DNA from: Flavobacteriaceae bacterium PS02334
GTDB taxonomy: Bacteria > Bacteroidota > Bacteroidia > Flavobacteriales > Flavobacteriaceae
Direction: 5' to 3'
Assembly (NCBI GenBank): GCA_029959295.1
Contig: JASCOH010000011.1
Location: 1-64,000 of the forward strand
DNA: 64,000 bases
Shown: one piece after another, positions 36,178 to 44,187 of the stretch
Layout of the letters: every line of letters begins with the position of its first letter
Position numbering within the stretch: position 1 is the stretch's first letter
Notes under the pieces: model-generated
Database searches by the model: none
Told to the model about the DNA's origin: nothing
What the model saw: the letters and a program-made list of their open reading frames with translations, nothing else
Position numbers and translations under genes: made by a program

Positions 36178-36816
36178 TTACAACACCGTAATTGCGCCCA
36201 AATATTGGCTGGTGCTTTTCAGCGCAGTTTCAGAGGCAATCATGAAAGCCCAGCACTGCACTTCGCTTCCTGTCAAATAAGCCGGCAAGACGATTGTAGC
36301 GTCACTGTCTGACCTAACCCCTGCATTTAAGAAAAATTCATAAAAGTGCCCGATCGGCTCATACACCACAACCATCAATTTGTCATTGTCGCGAGCGTTT
36401 CCTTGAGGATTGTTTATCCATTCAAGCTTCAGCTTTCCGCCTGCAATGGCAATGGCGGTCATATTTTGCGGCGCTAATAATGTTCCTCTAGAAAAAAGTG
36501 CCTTGTCATAAAGCAGGCGTGCTTCTGTATCTTCAAATTCTACGGCTTCCTTCAAATGATAGGATGTCGCCAAATTGTATCGGGATTGCGTGCCTGCAGG
36601 TGACCCAAAATAGTCAGACAAAATGCTGTTTGCCGGAGTAAGAAATCGTGTCACCGCAGCAAACTTTGCCCTTTGTGCCAGCTGTCCAAGCGTCGGTACC
36701 TTTTTTGTCTTTTTTGGCCTGCCTCGCATCACATTCTTCCCTCTAAAGCTTGCCCCAACAACAGGACCTACCAATCCTGAAAATGCTCCTAAAATGCCTT
36801 GTTCATAAGTTCCCAT
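36178..36816 (-). CDS. DUF6266 family protein
   Basis: It encodes 212 residues with no signal peptide. The N-terminus GILGAFSGLVGPVVGASFRGKNVMRGRP and the QRAKFAAVTRFL segment are the family pattern of DUF6266 proteins, which occur (often in several copies) in Bacteroidota. The rest is beta-rich. Function is unknown. It is convergent with the AraC gene and lies just left of the restriction-modification region, but no link to that system is visible. Confidence 0.8.
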   Translation of the reverse strand: MGTYEQGILGAFSGLVGPVVGASFRGKNVMRGRPKKTKKVPTLGQLAQRAKFAAVTRFLTPANSILSDYFGSPAGTQSRYNLATSYHLKEAVEFEDTEARLLYDKALFSRGTLLAPQNMTAIAIAGGKLKLEWINNPQGNARDNDKLMVVVYEPIGHFYEFFLNAGVRSDSDATIVLPAYLTGSEVQCWAFMIASETALKSTSQYLGAITVL

Positions 36817-37209
36817 AAAATCAAAATTTAAAGTTTATATTTTGTTTTGCCAAAGCCTTTTCTTGGCATTGGATAGAGCGAATGTAGCGTGCTTTTTAAA
36901 GCGTCTGACATCGTGACGTTTCTTGACAGGCCGTGAAATTATTGATGCATTTTGAAAGAAATTATTGCCAGTGAAACCAATGACCGATTATGACCGCTAT
37001 TGAACGGCTGGTCGATTTTTAACCGTACTTTGTTCGAGGTTTGTTAGAGGTTTGTTCGTCTCGATACTATCAAAGTGGGGCTTGTGTCGAACAAGGTTCG
37101 AACCAATCTAGAACCGAGTGCCTGAAAGGGGTGTATCAAAATTTGCAAGTACAAAATAAAAAAGCCCACTCTGGACAGAATAGGCTTGGGCGATGTGCGC
37201 AAAATTACG
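36817..37209. other. Non-coding junction left of the restriction-modification region
   Basis: This 393-base stretch holds no convincing gene. Repeated GAGGTTTGTT words (about 37036-37056), and a GGTTCGAACC palindrome near 37093, are present. A weak leftward hairpin with a T run (about 37166-37195) may end the HTH gene. It could be the left boundary of an inserted module, but no integrase or duplicated end was found. Confidence 0.4.
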
Positions 37210-37434
37210 CTATAGTTCGTTTCTGATTTTCATAAAATTCATAATCAGCTCATAAGGATAGTAATATTTCCTGCCGATCTTTTTATAGTTTACAATTTTT
37301 GATTTCCGCCAGCGAAACAAGGTACTGTCGCTAATCTTAAACATGATTTTCATTTGGGAATTGTCAAGAAACATGATTTCCAAATTTGGATTGGCAAGCC
37401 GGGGGCTTGATTTTGCATTGCTTAGTTTTTTCAT
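37210..37434 (-). CDS. Small helix-turn-helix DNA-binding protein
   Basis: It encodes 74 residues. The C-terminal half reads MKIMFKISDSTLFRWRKSK then a wing-like YKKIGRKYYYPYELI, the layout of excisionase/MerR-type HTH (HTH_17-like) proteins that bind with a winged helix. The N-terminus is short and basic. It is divergent from hsdR with a 300-base spacer. It might regulate the type I operon or be a relic of a mobile element; both are inference. Confidence 0.72.
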   Translation of the reverse strand: MKKLSNAKSSPRLANPNLEIMFLDNSQMKIMFKISDSTLFRWRKSKIVNYKKIGRKYYYPYELIMNFMKIRNEL

Positions 37435-37680
37435 AAAAGTGCAGGTTTAATGGAATAGATAAAATCATTTTTTTTAATAACTTTTTAAAACAAATAACAG
37501 ATAAAAACAAAATTAAATAACTTTTATTGTGTTTTATTAGCGTTAATTAAATTGTAATAATTCACCTATTGTTTGTTAATTTAAATCTTGATTTTTGGAA
37601 ATTAAAAATTTAATTGAAGTGTGGACAACCGTAATGGTATGTAGAAAATGTTTGGTAGTTTGGAAACAAAACTGTATGTG
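37435..37680. other. Long AT-rich spacer upstream of hsdR
   Basis: Very AT-rich, no ORF of note. It separates the HTH gene from hsdR, both reading outward, and must hold both promoters. The hsdR promoter lies at its right edge. Confidence 0.5.
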
Positions 37681-37712
37681 TTGAAAATAGCTCAAAGCAT
37701 TTTGTATATTTA
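37681..37712 (+). promoter_or_regulatory. Promoter of the type I restriction operon
   Basis: TTG at 37681-37683 and TATATTTA at 37705-37712 (one mismatch to TAnnTTTG) are separated by 21 bases, within the 17-21 range for flavobacterial promoters. The hsdR ATG follows 22 bases later. Confidence 0.6.
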
Positions 37713-37734
37713 CGAATATTTAAGAAAACAATAA

Positions 37735-40700
37735 ATGACCTTCAACGAAGATTCCAGAGTAAAAATACCAGCGATATTGCATTTGATGCGGTTAGGCTAT
37801 CAATATATTTCTTTATGTAATCAAAATAGGATTGAGGAGAGTAATGTTTTTTCTTCTATTTTTATTCCTAAAATTTCCTCCATCAATGGAATTTCTGAAC
37901 AGGAAACACTTCGTTTGCTTGATGAGATAAATCTTGAATTAGATTATGAAGATTTAGGCAAGAAATTTTATGAACGACTGACCGCTACTTCAGGTATAAA
38001 GTTGATTGACTTTGAAAATTTCGAAAATAATGACTTTCACATTACCACGGAACTTACATGTAAATCAGGTGACGAAGAATTTAGACCTGATATTACTGTA
38101 TTAGTCAATGGGATCCCTCTAGCATTTATTGAAGTTAAAAAACCACACAACAAAGACGGTGTAATAGCTGAACGAAATCGTATTAATGCCCGTTTTAAAA
38201 ACAAACATTTCCGACGATTTGCAAATATTACACAGTTGATGGTTTTTTCTAATAATATGGAATATGAAGATGGGATTGTTGATCCTATTTTTGGTGCATT
38301 TTATGCCACGTCATCTTATGAATCTCTTTATTTCAACTTTTTTAGAGAAGATAACGATTATCCTGTAAATCAGAGATTAATTGAAATTAATGAAGCTGAA
38401 GAAAATGCTTTACTGAAGGATAATAACCTAATGGTTATTAAGAATAGTCCAGAATATATTACCAATAAACAGCCTTATACTCCAACTCATAAAATCCTAA
38501 CTTCACTATTTGCTAAAGAACGTTTAGCTTTTATTTTACAGTTTGCTATTGCGTATGTTGAAGAGGAAAACAACGGTAAAAAAGATTTGCAAAAACACAT
38601 TATGCGTTATCCGCAATTATTTGCTACGCAAGCTATTGCTACAAAATTAGAACAAGGTCAAAACAAAGGAATTATATGGCATACCCAAGGATCAGGAAAA
38701 ACAGCTCTCGCATACTTCAATGTCAAGCATTTGACTAAATACTATGCAAAGAAACAGATTATTCCAAAGTTTTATTTTATTGTAGACCGAATAGATTTAT
38801 TGATACAAGCAACTGGTGAATTTTCTAATCGTGGGTTAAAAGTCAATTCTATTAATTCAAAACAAGATTTTACCAAAGACCTGCAAATTGTGGGAGCAAT
38901 TCATAACGACAGTGGCATTCCAGAAATCACAGTAGTTAATATTCAAAAATTTAGTGAAGACGCTACTGCTATAGAAACTGCACACTATGACATAAACGTT
39001 CAAAGAATTTTCTTTTTAGATGAAGCCCATAGAAGCTATAATCCAAAAGGTAATTATTTAGCAAATCTGGTTAATTCCGATCGTAAGGCAGTCATTATTG
39101 CTTTAACAGGAACACCTTTATTAAGAGAAGTTGCCAAAGAATATGACTCCAAAATGCTGTTTGGAAATTACTTTCATAAATACTATTACAATATGTCTAT
39201 TGCAGACGGCTACACTTTACGACTGATTCGTGAAGAGATAGAAGGTGGATTCAAGATGCAGATGAAAGATGTAATGGACCAGATTAAGGTTTTACAGGGA
39301 GATATTAAAGCTTCTGAATTGTATGCACATCCATCATTTGCAGAGCCTTTGTTAGATTATATTACTAAGGATTTAATCCAATTCAGAAGAGATCATCAAG
39401 ATACTTCATTAGGCGGAATGGTAGTTTGTGATTCGGCAGACCAGGCCAAAGAACTTTTCCGTTTATTTCAAGAGAAATATGATATTCAGGAAACTAATGC
39501 AAGCATATTAATGGCTGCAGAACCACATACAAAATATGGCAAGGAAGAACCAAACCTTACTGCTGCTTTAATTTTACACGATGAAAATGACAAAGGCATC
39601 CGTAAAGAACTTATTAATGCTTACAAAAAAGCTAAGGTTGATATATTATTTGTATATAATATGCTTCTCACAGGCTTTGATGCAAAACGCCTAAAGAAAT
39701 TGTATTTAGCTCGTGTTATTCAAGATCACAATTTATTACAGACTTTAACGCGTGTTAATCGTCCTTATAAAAAATATAAATATGGTTATGTTGTTGATTT
39801 CGCAGATATTTCAAAAGCTTTTGACCGTACTAACAGATTATATTTTGACGAGTTACAAGATCAGTTAGGTAATGAAATGGAGATGTATTCTTATCTTTTT
39901 AAGTCCCAAGAAGAAATTCAAGCAGAAATCAAGGAAATCAAAGAGACCTTATTTCATTACGATACTCAGAATAGAGAACTATTCTCACAGCAAATAGCTC
40001 AAATTACCGATAAACAAGAGCTGACACGATTACTAAAAGCTTTGAAAACAGCAAAGGAACTGAAAAATATTATTGCTGTAAACAATTATGAAGCCCTAGA
40101 CGGCATTGCTAATTTTGATGTTTGGAACCGCTTACTGATTGAAACACAAAACAGGTTAGATAATCTGAATTTTGTTGAAAGCATCGGTAATGAAGAAGCT
40201 TCGAGAAATCTGCTCAATACAGCCCTGGAAGACATCGTCTTTCAGTTTATCAAAGTTGACGAAAGCGAATTGGTCTTAGCGGATGAATTTAAAGATATCT
40301 TGCGCAAGACACGTGAATCTTTACAAACAAATTTCGATCAGTATGATCCGCAATTTGTAAGTTTGCGTGAAGAATTGGAACGCATCTTCAAAAAGAAAAA
40401 TCTGAATGAAACGACACAGGAAGACATGATTGAGAATATGCGTCTACTGCAAAAAATTTACGATAAAGCCAAAGAGCTAAACCGTAAAAATGCTTTAATT
40501 AAGGCCAAATATGAAAGCGATGAAAAATATGCTCGCATCCATAAAAGGTTGAGTGAAAAAGGAACTCTGAATGCAAAAGAAACACAACTTCATAATGCCT
40601 TAATGCAGGTAAAACAACAAGTTGATGATAAACTTGAAGGGCAAAAAGACTTGATGAATAACGAGGCATTCTTTAAAAAATACTTAATGCAGGTGGTGAT

Positions 40701-40806
40701 CAACGAATTCAGGAAAAAAGAAAATATTTCATTAGACTTTGCGACAACAGAGAACATAAATCATTTAATTGTGAATGAATATTTACAACAGTATCATTTA
40801 AGATGA
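37735..40806 (+). CDS. hsdR: Type I restriction enzyme, R subunit (HsdR)
   Basis: It encodes 1023 residues, the size of EcoR124-class HsdR. The N-terminal PD-(D/E)XK nuclease shows RPDITVLVNGIPLAFIEVKK (Asp119, Glu133, Lys135). The SF2 motor shows HTQGSGKTAL (Walker A, about 318-323), FLDEAHRSY (DEAH 429-432), ALTGTPLL (motif III) and later DILFVYNMLLTGFDA and TRVNRPYKKYKYG (motifs V and VI). A coiled C-terminal helical part follows. It translocates DNA and cuts distant from unmethylated sites as part of R2M2S. Its last 4 bases overlap the start of the following nuclease gene, so the operon is tightly packed. Confidence 0.96.
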   Translation: MTFNEDSRVKIPAILHLMRLGYQYISLCNQNRIEESNVFSSIFIPKISSINGISEQETLRLLDEINLELDYEDLGKKFYERLTATSGIKLIDFENFENNDFHITTELTCKSGDEEFRPDITVLVNGIPLAFIEVKKPHNKDGVIAERNRINARFKNKHFRRFANITQLMVFSNNMEYEDGIVDPIFGAFYATSSYESLYFNFFREDNDYPVNQRLIEINEAEENALLKDNNLMVIKNSPEYITNKQPYTPTHKILTSLFAKERLAFILQFAIAYVEEENNGKKDLQKHIMRYPQLFATQAIATKLEQGQNKGIIWHTQGSGKTALAYFNVKHLTKYYAKKQIIPKFYFIVDRIDLLIQATGEFSNRGLKVNSINSKQDFTKDLQIVGAIHNDSGIPEITVVNIQKFSEDATAIETAHYDINVQRIFFLDEAHRSYNPKGNYLANLVNSDRKAVIIALTGTPLLREVAKEYDSKMLFGNYFHKYYYNMSIADGYTLRLIREEIEGGFKMQMKDVMDQIKVLQGDIKASELYAHPSFAEPLLDYITKDLIQFRRDHQDTSLGGMVVCDSADQAKELFRLFQEKYDIQETNASILMAAEPHTKYGKEEPNLTAALILHDENDKGIRKELINAYKKAKVDILFVYNMLLTGFDAKRLKKLYLARVIQDHNLLQTLTRVNRPYKKYKYGYVVDFADISKAFDRTNRLYFDELQDQLGNEMEMYSYLFKSQEEIQAEIKEIKETLFHYDTQNRELFSQQIAQITDKQELTRLLKALKTAKELKNIIAVNNYEALDGIANFDVWNRLLIETQNRLDNLNFVESIGNEEASRNLLNTALEDIVFQFIKVDESELVLADEFKDILRKTRESLQTNFDQYDPQFVSLREELERIFKKKNLNETTQEDMIENMRLLQKIYDKAKELNRKNALIKAKYESDEKYARIHKRLSEKGTLNAKETQLHNALMQVKQQVDDKLEGQKDLMNNEAFFKKYLMQVVINEFRKKENISLDFATTENINHLIVNEYLQQYHLR

Positions 40807-41918
40807 ACAAAGTAAAAATTGAAGCTCCAAATATTTTTAAATATGCTACAAAAGAGCTCTCTCAAGATGCCTTTTTATGTTGGTTATTTTCATTTGCAGA
40901 CATAGATTACAAATATTCTGATTATAACAATTTACACAAAGTAGCTCTAAATTTACTGAACAAATTTATTGATGTAGATGGATACATCATTAAGAAAGTC
41001 ATCGTTAAGAAGCAAATTAAAAATATTGATATTTGGATAGAAATAAATTCTGAATTACTAATCGTAATCGAAGATAAAACGAATAGTGTAGCCAGCGATA
41101 ATCAACTGTCTAAATATTACAAAACAGCACGCGACTATTGCATAAAAAATAAATTTCAGCACCCAATTTGCATATATTTTAAAACAGGAAGAGAAACTCT
41201 AAAAGTTTTCAATAGTTCAAATATAGATGGGAAATGGAAATATTTTTCATTAAAAGCATTAATTGACATTTTAACTCCATTTGAAGAAAAAATTGACCAT
41301 CCTTACTTTCAGGATTTTCATAGAATAACCAAACAACGTTTTGACTTAACTAGTAATTTCGACAGACACATATTTAAAGGTGATCTTAAAAAATTAGATA
41401 ATGAGTTAATTGAAGCTTTTTATTCCAAATTAGAAGACGATAAGATATTTCATAATTGGAAATATCTTGATTCTAGAGGTGTAAGGAGATATTATGCAAA
41501 CAATTACTCCTATCAAGCAAATACTGCAAATGTCTATTTACAGCTTGATAGGATGGATCTGAAATTAAGGATCGACTTAGGCAAATTGGGAAATGAGAAA
41601 GGAAAAATTTATAAGAAGTTTCAAGAAAATTTAAAAAGAAATGACATCAAGTCAATTTATTCTGGAGTACGTTCAATCATAGAAAACCACTCAAAATTCA
41701 ATGGAACAGTTTGTAAGCCTTTTAAATTTGCTTCACATAACTTTTTAATCTTTGCAATGATTCCGCCAGAGATATGGTTTCATAATAACAGTTCGGGATC
41801 TATGGATTATGAAAGAACAAAAGAAAAGATTAAATCTATTAACAAAGATTTATTCGAAGTCACGGAACAGCATCAGCAAGAAATTTTAGACATTGTAAAT
41901 ATTGCATTTAAAAATTAA
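40803..41918 (+). CDS. PD-(D/E)XK nuclease-like protein inside the type I operon
   Basis: It encodes 371 residues. Near the start is KELSQDAFLCWLFSF, then NIDIWIEI (Asp76) and LLIVIEDKTNS (Glu90-Asp-Lys92), followed by NQLSKYYKTA; this E...D...ExK...Q order is that of PDDEXK_4-like (PF14281-type) nucleases. The remainder is a beta-rich region without another known domain. The family occurs in defence islands, but its job within type I operons is not known to me. Its ATG overlaps the hsdR stop (40803-40806), and hsdM begins 10 bases after its stop, so it is almost certainly expressed with the restriction system. Confidence 0.85.
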   Translation: MNKVKIEAPNIFKYATKELSQDAFLCWLFSFADIDYKYSDYNNLHKVALNLLNKFIDVDGYIIKKVIVKKQIKNIDIWIEINSELLIVIEDKTNSVASDNQLSKYYKTARDYCIKNKFQHPICIYFKTGRETLKVFNSSNIDGKWKYFSLKALIDILTPFEEKIDHPYFQDFHRITKQRFDLTSNFDRHIFKGDLKKLDNELIEAFYSKLEDDKIFHNWKYLDSRGVRRYYANNYSYQANTANVYLQLDRMDLKLRIDLGKLGNEKGKIYKKFQENLKRNDIKSIYSGVRSIIENHSKFNGTVCKPFKFASHNFLIFAMIPPEIWFHNNSSGSMDYERTKEKIKSINKDLFEVTEQHQQEILDIVNIAFKN

Positions 41919-41928
41919 ATAGTACAAC

Positions 41929-43545
41929 ATGACTCAGGACATAACTTTCATTACCAAAACCAAGTCGCTAATCGACAACCTTAAAAGCGTTTGCGCCAAT
42001 TACGGTCTCGGCAATGATGGAAACGAATTCAAAATTATTACCCAGGTATTTTTATATAAATTTCTGAACGACAAATTCCGTTATGAAGTAAAAAAGGAAA
42101 TGCCTCAATTAGCAGATGTCGATAATTTATCTGATGCTTTGATTAAATTGAAAGAAGACGAATACTCCTTTCTGTTAGGTGGTTTAGACCCAAATGTACC
42201 CCGATTACAGCCCTATCAACTGATTTCTTCATTATTTAAAAAACAAAATGATGGCGATTTTGCAAAACTGTTTGACGATACCTTACGCCAAATCAGTATC
42301 GAAAATGCTGACGTATTCTCAGTTAAATCATCATCAGGAGCTAAGGATAAATTGTTTGATGAACTGAGCCAGTTTATTTCTGACGCTTCTCAGCGGGATG
42401 CTTTTTGCAAAGCTTTAATCAATAAGCTTTTTGAGTTTAGTTTTGAAGAAATGTTTGAGCAGAAATATGATTTCTTTGCTACAATCTTCGAATATTTGAT
42501 CAAAGATTACAATACTGACTCTGGCGGTAAATATGCTGAATATTACACCCCTCATGCCGTTGCTAGAATTATGGCAAAAATAATGGTTCCGGGACCTGTG
42601 AAAGGGGTGAAATGTTATGATCCAAGTGCTGGATCAGGAACATTGTTAATGAGTATAGCGCACGAGATTGGTGAAGAAAACTGTACGATTTATTCAGAAG
42701 ACATTTCGCAGAAGTCAAGCAATATGTTGCGATTAAATTTGGTACTAAACAACCTTACCCATTCGATACCAAACGTAATTAAAACCAATACCATTGGAGA
42801 ACCGAATTACTTGGAGACAAAATTTGACTACATCGTGTCAAATCCGCCGTTTAAATTAGACTTTTCAGATTTTCACGCAGATTTGGGGAAAGATATTTTT
42901 AAGACAAGATTTTTTGCAGGGATTCCAAACATTCCAAAAAGCAAAAAAGAATCGATGTCAATTTATCTTTTATTTATTCAACATATTATGCACAGCTTAA
43001 GTAAGACCGGAAAAGCTGCCATTGTAGTACCTACTGGATTTATAACAGCACAATCAGGCATTGAAAAGAAAATTCGTGAACGCCTGATCACAAATGGTTG
43101 GTTACGCGGCGTGGTAAGCATGCCGAGCAATATTTTCGCAAGTACGGGAACCAATGTTTCTGTTTTATTTTTTGATAAGGAAGCCGATAGTGAGCATATC
43201 GTTTTAATGGACGCTTCAAAGCTCGGACAGACTGTAAAAGAAGGCAAGAACCAGCGAACAGTTTTAACAAGAGACGAAGAGGCTAAAATTGTAGAAACTT
43301 TCAATAACAAAGAGGCAATCGAAGATCTTTCAGTAGTGGTTACTAAAGAACAAATCATTGAAAAAAACTACAGCTTCAGCGCAGGACAATATTTTGAGGT
43401 AAAAATTGAATATGTAGAAATCACAGCAGAAGAATTTCAAAATAAGATGACTGTTTTTGAAAATAATTTGAGCGCTATGTTTGCTGAAAGCGCAGAGTTG
43501 GAAAAGAAAATACAGGATAATTTGAAAAAGTTGAGGTATGAGTAA
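41929..43545 (+). CDS. hsdM: Type I DNA methyltransferase, M subunit (HsdM)
   Basis: It encodes 538 residues. An N-terminal helical bundle (about 1-140: LKSVCANYGLGNDGNEFK) is followed by the N6-adenine methyltransferase: GGKYAEYYTPHAVARIM, CYDPSAGSGTLLM (motif I, AdoMet), and VSNPPFKLDF (motif IV catalytic NPPF). The C-terminal coiled coil (about 500-538) would contact HsdS. It protects host sites by adenine methylation and forms the core of the R2M2S complex. It overlaps hsdS by 8 bases. Confidence 0.96.
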   Translation: MTQDITFITKTKSLIDNLKSVCANYGLGNDGNEFKIITQVFLYKFLNDKFRYEVKKEMPQLADVDNLSDALIKLKEDEYSFLLGGLDPNVPRLQPYQLISSLFKKQNDGDFAKLFDDTLRQISIENADVFSVKSSSGAKDKLFDELSQFISDASQRDAFCKALINKLFEFSFEEMFEQKYDFFATIFEYLIKDYNTDSGGKYAEYYTPHAVARIMAKIMVPGPVKGVKCYDPSAGSGTLLMSIAHEIGEENCTIYSEDISQKSSNMLRLNLVLNNLTHSIPNVIKTNTIGEPNYLETKFDYIVSNPPFKLDFSDFHADLGKDIFKTRFFAGIPNIPKSKKESMSIYLLFIQHIMHSLSKTGKAAIVVPTGFITAQSGIEKKIRERLITNGWLRGVVSMPSNIFASTGTNVSVLFFDKEADSEHIVLMDASKLGQTVKEGKNQRTVLTRDEEAKIVETFNNKEAIEDLSVVVTKEQIIEKNYSFSAGQYFEVKIEYVEITAEEFQNKMTVFENNLSAMFAESAELEKKIQDNLKKLRYE

Positions 43546-44110
43546 GTTCGTAAAATTAAGAGATGTTTGTATACGCATTACAGATGGTGCTCATTACAGC
43601 CCTGCTGGCGTCAAAGAAGGATTTCCGATGTTGTCAGTCAAAGATATGAGAGATAATGGTTTTGATTATTCTGCCTGTAAATTTATTTCAAAAGTTGATT
43701 TTGACGATTTAGTTAGAAATGATTGCAAACCTTTAATTAATGACATTTTAATTGCTAAGGATGGTAGCTACTTAAAACATGTTTTTGTTACAAAAAATGA
43801 AATCGATCAGGCAATTTTATCTTCTATAGGAATTTTGAGGCCAGATCTTAATTCTATAGTTCCCGAATATTTAAAATATTATTTACAGACTAAATCGGTT
43901 AAAGATACGGTTGCAAAGAAATATGTTTCAGGAAGTGCTTTACCAAGAATTATTTTAAAAAACTTTGGAGAAATAGATATTCTAAATTCGGATATATCAA
44001 CCCAACAAAAAATAGCTTCAACTTTATCTACCATAGATGATAAAATAGAGCTTAACAATCGGATAAATTATCATTTAGCTTATCAACGATTGAGAAAACC
44101 AATAAAATAA
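43538..44110 (+). CDS. hsdS: Type I specificity subunit (HsdS), single-TRD half-size form
   Basis: It encodes 190 residues, against about 400 for usual HsdS. It has one target-recognition domain: KLRDVCIRITDGAHYSPAG, GFPMLSVKDM, ILIAKDGSYLKHVFV and GSALPRIILKNFGEIDI. One central-type helix follows (STQQKIASTLSTIDDKIELNNRIN), and then LAYQRLRKPIK and stop. The second TRD and second spacer helix are missing, and no remnant follows before the terminator 25 bases on. It is either a natural half-subunit that dimerises to read a symmetric site, or a truncation. No second hsdS cassette or recombinase is in the window. Confidence 0.9.
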   Translation: MSKFVKLRDVCIRITDGAHYSPAGVKEGFPMLSVKDMRDNGFDYSACKFISKVDFDDLVRNDCKPLINDILIAKDGSYLKHVFVTKNEIDQAILSSIGILRPDLNSIVPEYLKYYLQTKSVKDTVAKKYVSGSALPRIILKNFGEIDILNSDISTQQKIASTLSTIDDKIELNNRINYHLAYQRLRKPIK

Positions 44111-44135
44111 ACAGACTAACTTTATTTACAAACCA

Positions 44136-44168
44136 AAAAAGGCAACTGCTCATCACAGTTGCCTTTTT
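44136..44168. terminator. Bidirectional terminator
   Basis: Stem AAAAAGGCAACTG (44136-44148) pairs with CAGTTGCCTTTTT (44156-44168). It closes the hsd operon and also the convergent transporter gene. Confidence 0.9.
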
Positions 44169-44187
44169 ATTATTATTAATAGCTAAA

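Follow-up and report, generated by a model that had tools for sequence, protein, structure and literature searches.

A PDDEXK_4-family nuclease gene lodged between hsdR and hsdM of a Flavobacteriaceae type I restriction operon

Flavobacteriaceae bacterium PS02334 carries, between the hsdR and hsdM genes of a type I restriction-modification operon, an intact gene for a PDDEXK_4-family protein that is probably a self-contained accessory nuclease, serving as a parallel or backup defence and not as a subunit of HsdR. The window analysed is the first 64,000 nucleotides of contig JASCOH010000011.1 (GCA_029959295.1); its type I system has hsdR, hsdM and hsdS present with motifs intact, the hsdS being half-size (Table 1). 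The accessory reading is preferred because the nuclease family occurs mostly without hsd genes and because the same junction in related operons is empty or filled by unrelated genes. It is supported by matches to PDDEXK_4 and PDC-S26, by catalytic residues that never vary across the family alignment, by the WYL and BrxB neighbours of relatives, and by two separate type I contexts. Against it stand the closest relative in the same slot, sister HsdRs, as expected under joint inheritance and perhaps under functional dependence, the housekeeping neighbours of some relatives, and, in the window, the missing WYL neighbour and the missing promoter-pattern match in 36701-43600.

Table 1. The hsd operon and its embedded nuclease gene (window positions).
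Feature	Coordinates	Strand	Remarks
hsdR, 1023 aa	37735..40806	+	Pfam HSDR_N, SWI2_SNF2/ResIII motor, T1R_D3-like
PD...ExK nuclease motif within HsdR, residues 118-135	38086..38139	+	
PDDEXK_4-family gene (P0001), 371 aa, ATG start, intact ORF	40803..41918	+	
ATGA, nuclease start overlapping hsdR stop, 4 bp	40803..40806	+	
N-terminal family signature PNIFKYATKELSQDAF, residues 9-24	40827..40874	+	contains positions invariant in the 50-sequence alignment
Active-site core, D76 codon (41028-41030) to E90-x-K92 codons (41070-41078)	41028..41078	+	invariant, n=50
QxxxY motif, Q101-x3-Y105	41103..41117	+	invariant, n=50
Gap from nuclease stop to hsdM, 10 bp	41919..41928	+	
hsdM, 538 aa	41929..43545	+	N6_Mtase (Pfam) with NPPF
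hsdS, half-size, 190 aa, one Methylase_S domain	43538..44110	+	Pfam
Inverted repeat followed by T run, putative operon terminator	44123..44181	.	terminator judged by eye

The first-pass annotation had described a 371-residue reading frame that overlaps hsdR by 4 bp and stops 10 bp short of hsdM, and these features were confirmed; its statement that HsdR has a nuclease domain of its own agrees with the PD...ExK motif retained in HsdR. The hsdM and hsdS genes overlap by 8 bp. hsdR, the nuclease gene, hsdM and hsdS are likely carried on one transcript. The G+C content is 28.0% in the nuclease gene, 29.5% in hsdS, 32.9% in hsdR and 35.8% in hsdM. A Bacteroidota-type promoter pattern had no match within 36701-43600. 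Upstream of hsdR lies a DUF6266 gene on the minus strand (36178-36816, E 1.1e-30), followed by about 900 bp without any ORF of at least 120 aa. Short open frames with Methylase_S also occur elsewhere in the source genome (192 and 211 aa, on contigs C55 and C11), and a half-size HsdS of 185 aa is found in a related locus (L109); single-domain S subunits that assemble into homodimers are described in excerpts of PMC3874165.

The nuclease matches Pfam PF14281 (PDDEXK_4) with an E value of 2e-5 and 25.1 bits (gathering cut-off 22.3), its Myroides marinus relative also scores above that cut-off (27.6 bits), and no second Pfam domain was found in the window protein at E <= 1. Across 50 aligned members drawn from several phyla (A3), D76, E90, K92, Q101 and Y105 are invariant, as are N10, F12, Y14, A15, E18, L19, Q21, D22, A23 and Q71. 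Asp76 and Glu90-x-Lys92, singled out in the first-pass annotation together with a following Gln, are thus kept in every member, and the motif is therefore not a product of chance. The QxxxY motif is one of four RecB-like nuclease motifs in PMC2602864, and by the definitions given there three of the four can be placed in the protein: D76 corresponds to motif II, E90-x-K92 to motif III and Q101/Y105 to QxxxY. Judged from sequence, the protein belongs to the PDDEXK_4 superfamily with a RecB-like motif set, and it would be expected to have nuclease activity with DNA as its target. Models of the PADLOC candidate PDC-S26 match all 50 A3 members (PDLC04977, E <= 0.001), but the match of the window protein is weak and partial (E 1.1e-8; residues 56-160, model positions 87-182 of 400). 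The preprint that founded these candidates is reportedly Payne et al. 2024. Among PDB sequences, no relative of the A3 profile was found at E <= 1.

The nuclease family is widespread yet sparse. Genomes with a match to the protein or its alignments number 2 of 100 relatives, 6 of 395 from the phylum and 5 of 397 from the family, the source genome being included in each count. The genome_contigs scan with alignment A1, which requires YA[TP][SK]EL[ST]QD and misses members lacking that motif, returned 201 relatives, the best 80 of which were retrieved; a scan of genome_contigs with the window protein alone gave 37 pattern matches and no relatives. By tblastn, one plasmid record and no phage record matched the nuclease, and the viral_contigs scan gave 10 pattern matches with no relative among them. 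A phage or plasmid origin was rejected on these last three results.

Genes of type I systems are absent from 87 of the 91 retrieved neighbourhoods of nuclease relatives, a set that comprises 88 distinct records (L010/L086, L011/L031 and L014/L092 are duplicate pairs) and 15 neighbourhoods shorter than 12 kb, and in which very distant hsd genes may escape profiles built from the window's own hsd lineage. The four neighbourhoods with hsd genes are L015, which matches by construction as a member of those profiles, L063, where the hsd gene adjoins the nuclease on the opposite strand, L083, with a single weak HsdR-like match (E 5e-6), and L141. The nuclease is truly embedded in a type I operon in two of the 91 (raw count): L015, from Myroides marinus, has the order hsdR-nuclease-hsdM-hsdS, and L141, from the same family, has hsdM-hsdS-X-nuclease-hsdR, with the nuclease gene overlapping hsdR by 8 bp. 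The HsdR and HsdM of L141 differ in domain content from those of the window (T1RH-like_C and HsdM_N). Gene X (L141:10386-11012) encodes 208 aa with weak matches to uncharacterised PHROGs (E 1.7e-10 at best). The first-pass annotation had made its reading depend on where homologues sit, and the answer is divided, the wide family lying mostly outside type I operons and the closest relative occupying the identical slot.

A WYL-type regulator is a recurrent neighbour, found within 6 kb of the nuclease in 22 of 90 loci (the 91 less L142, whose nuclease was missed by the single-sequence search) and immediately beside it in the same orientation in nine of the 90; the window has none. The direct neighbours scanned numbered 71, after exclusion of six loci (four duplicates or near-duplicates, L015 and L141) and then of two of the 73 listed neighbours. 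Pfam WYL was present in nine of the 71, and defence-type neighbours included BrxB (one), DrmC-like (three), IetA-like (two) and a type III restriction enzyme (one). Aconitase (two) and an alanine-tRNA-synthetase domain protein (one) are housekeeping neighbours, so that a defence context is common in the family and not general.

Relatives of HsdM at E <= 1e-150 occur in 30 of 398 genomes from the genus and 13 of 395 from the phylum, with the source genome in both. Leaving the window aside, they supplied 40 loci in 39 genomes (L095-L134) for a survey of the hsdR-hsdM junction. The junction was readable in 39 (hsdR was not found in one locus): 25 were empty (gap <= 32 bp), 13 held cargo, and one had 174 bp without a matching ORF. 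By Pfam, the cargo was Bro-N in seven loci, RhuM-type in six and GIY-YIG in two, with two loci counted twice; the six RhuM-type cargoes include two RhuM-Fic genes and one fragment beside a Bro-N gene. None of the 39 readable junctions found through HsdM held this nuclease, the Myroides locus having been found through its nuclease and not through HsdM. Where HsdM most resembles that of the window (14 loci, 75-85% identity), hsdR and hsdM are separated by -4 to 6 bp with nothing inserted. On the hsdM-hsdS side, which was readable in only some of the 40 loci (the contig of L110, for example, ends there), RhuM or YhcG/DUF1016 genes occur in five of the 40 (L104, L113, L122, L133 and L134). Both junctions of this hsd lineage are cargo slots, the one between hsdR and hsdM being variable, and the nuclease is neither a conserved part of the type I operon nor a fixed component of the enzyme.

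The closest relative of the nuclease, among the best 80 of 201, is the Myroides marinus protein, which occupies the same slot, is intact and keeps its motifs. Identity between window and Myroides is 43% for the nuclease vs 80% for HsdR and 83% for HsdM. When 54 members of the family are placed in a tree, the two nucleases pair with an SH-aLRT of 100 and the L141 protein falls outside. The two HsdRs are sisters in a 17-row tree (97/95), and FastTree supports the pair at 0.978 with 39 rows and at 0.986 with HsdM joined on. The two HsdMs do not pair in their tree, and forcing them together costs 14.1 log-likelihood units (AU p 0.136), so that their pairing is not rejected. The simplest account of these trees would be a single gain together with an hsdR lineage, followed by faster evolution of the nuclease. 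The window and Myroides may instead have acquired the same nuclease subfamily separately, as the disparity in identity, the unpaired HsdMs and the insert borders would suggest; the borders differ, and the Myroides nuclease gene opens with 16 bases that also begin hsdM (ATGACACAAGATATAA, a raw observation). The HsdR tree speaks against separate gains and favours joint inheritance. Because the L141 nuclease is distant from this pair, embedding in type I operons arose at least twice. The link between the nuclease and type I systems is real but loose. The Myroides locus also carries a second, canonical PDDEXK_4 gene upstream of hsdR (L015:1202-2392, E 7.4e-32), and its HsdS (L015:8954-10840) is 628 aa long, with about 180 residues past the second specificity domain that match no Pfam family.

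As an accessory gene, the nuclease would have lodged in the cargo slot between hsdR and hsdM, where the hsdR overlap and the close spacing to hsdM would supply an operon transcript and translational coupling; on these two features we propose that it is produced along with the type I enzyme. Relying on an active site of its own, the nuclease would then work in parallel with that enzyme as an additional or backup defence nuclease, its C-terminal domain perhaps serving in sensing or targeting, and HsdR would not need it as a subunit. Both the role in phage defence and the functional independence from HsdR are thus predictions. The proposal in the first-pass annotation that this is a second effector of the system stands in so far as an intact PDDEXK_4 gene lies in the operon and Myroides has the same layout, and is not supported for obligate partnership; the action on modified, nicked or stalled DNA and the anti-escape role suggested there are hypotheses.

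A PrrC-like guard, in which the type I enzyme holds the nuclease inactive until a phage anti-restriction protein blocks the enzyme and so frees the nuclease to damage phage or host DNA, is unlikely, though it has a precedent: PrrC, encoded within the EcoprrI type IC operon, becomes active upon inhibition of the enzyme by T4 Stp (partial texts of PMC12707154 and PMC3874165). The layout common to the window and Myroides, with sister HsdRs, would suit a guard, and the nuclease has diverged relative to HsdR and HsdM as a fast-evolving effector might. In 87 of 91 cases, however, the neighbourhood of the relative lacks type I genes that could silence it, and the PrrC-like ABC-ATPase domain is absent, PDDEXK_4 being the sole Pfam match at E <= 1. 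The window protein does not have the combination of anticodon nuclease and ATPase domain that marks PrrC-like proteins.

It is quite unlikely that the nuclease is an obligate second effector, joining HsdR in a fixed ratio and processing HsdR-made ends or stalled complexes. The 4-bp overlap with hsdR, the 10-bp spacing to hsdM, the same gene order beside a sister HsdR in Myroides and the 8-bp overlap of nuclease and hsdR in L141 would all fit such a partner, but tight spacing argues for co-expression and only weakly for a fixed ratio. HsdR keeps a nuclease motif of its own, and the HsdMs of the window and Myroides are unpaired in their tree (a pairing that the AU test does not reject). The fixed ratio with HsdR, which the first-pass annotation took to be required, is weakened by the absence of any insert from the 14 loci with the closest HsdM and by the 87 of 91 relatives without hsd genes.

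Similarly unlikely is a version in which, in the sublineage of the window and Myroides, R-nuclease-M-S is inherited as a unit and the nuclease is a true fourth component. It would then co-evolve with HsdR and take over HsdR-made ends or blocked complexes, or alternatively fire upon HsdR inhibition. This version is retained because placement outside type I operons holds for the wide family and fails for the closest relative. Least probable is a passenger without a current role, a mobile gene tolerated where insertion is harmless: the junction accepts unrelated genes, the closest relatives are empty there and the gene is lower in G+C than hsdR and hsdM, but hsdS is similarly low, the ORF is intact with every family-invariant catalytic residue present, and a Myroides copy that is intact and keeps its motifs at 43% identity indicates selection, which argues against a dead passenger.

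Defence genes embedded in type I operons have been published before, and the window nuclease is a further instance, which adds a PDDEXK_4 nuclease to the effector genes known within such operons. A literature search that took in few subscription papers and had preprints outside its scope yielded no recognised description of a PDDEXK_4 gene at an hsdR-hsdM junction. One hsd lineage here shows a junction vacant in many genomes and holding unrelated genes in others, and such slots are places to seek uncharacterised defence genes. Should the nuclease prove to depend on HsdR, the type I enzyme here would combine two nuclease components.

The candidate defence genes of PADLOC (PDCs) are reported to come from guilt-by-embedding (PMC12988326, in part), and the nuclease is a gene of that kind, a non-core gene between core defence genes with relatives elsewhere. 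The DarTG2 module of the EPEC RRDM island, as described in part of PMC12255303, is likewise a non-hsd defence module inside a type I operon, at an hsdS-hsdR site called a potential recombination hotspot there, but it comprises a toxin and an antitoxin, lies between hsdS and hsdR and is accompanied by the RptR repressor, whereas the window has a single gene between hsdR and hsdM. PrrC in EcoprrI and the rlo genes inserted in Campylobacter hsd loci (PMC2610378, in part) are also extra effector genes within hsd loci; RloC, like PrrC, is a tRNA anticodon nuclease that has an ATPase domain, which sets both apart from the PDDEXK_4 protein of the window. The YhcG/DUF1016 genes of L113 and L122 encode PDDEXK proteins inside operons of the same hsd lineage, but belong to another family and sit at the hsdM-hsdS junction. 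Standalone PD-(D/E)XK effectors beside or inside BREX and BREX-related operons have been proposed as backup effectors, according to excerpts of PMC12839542; one nuclease relative (L011) similarly adjoins BrxB, the host operon there being BREX and that of the window type I restriction-modification. In L011 the nuclease gene (L011:9049-9615) directly precedes the BrxB gene, and the large ORF after BrxB resembles BrxC by eye.
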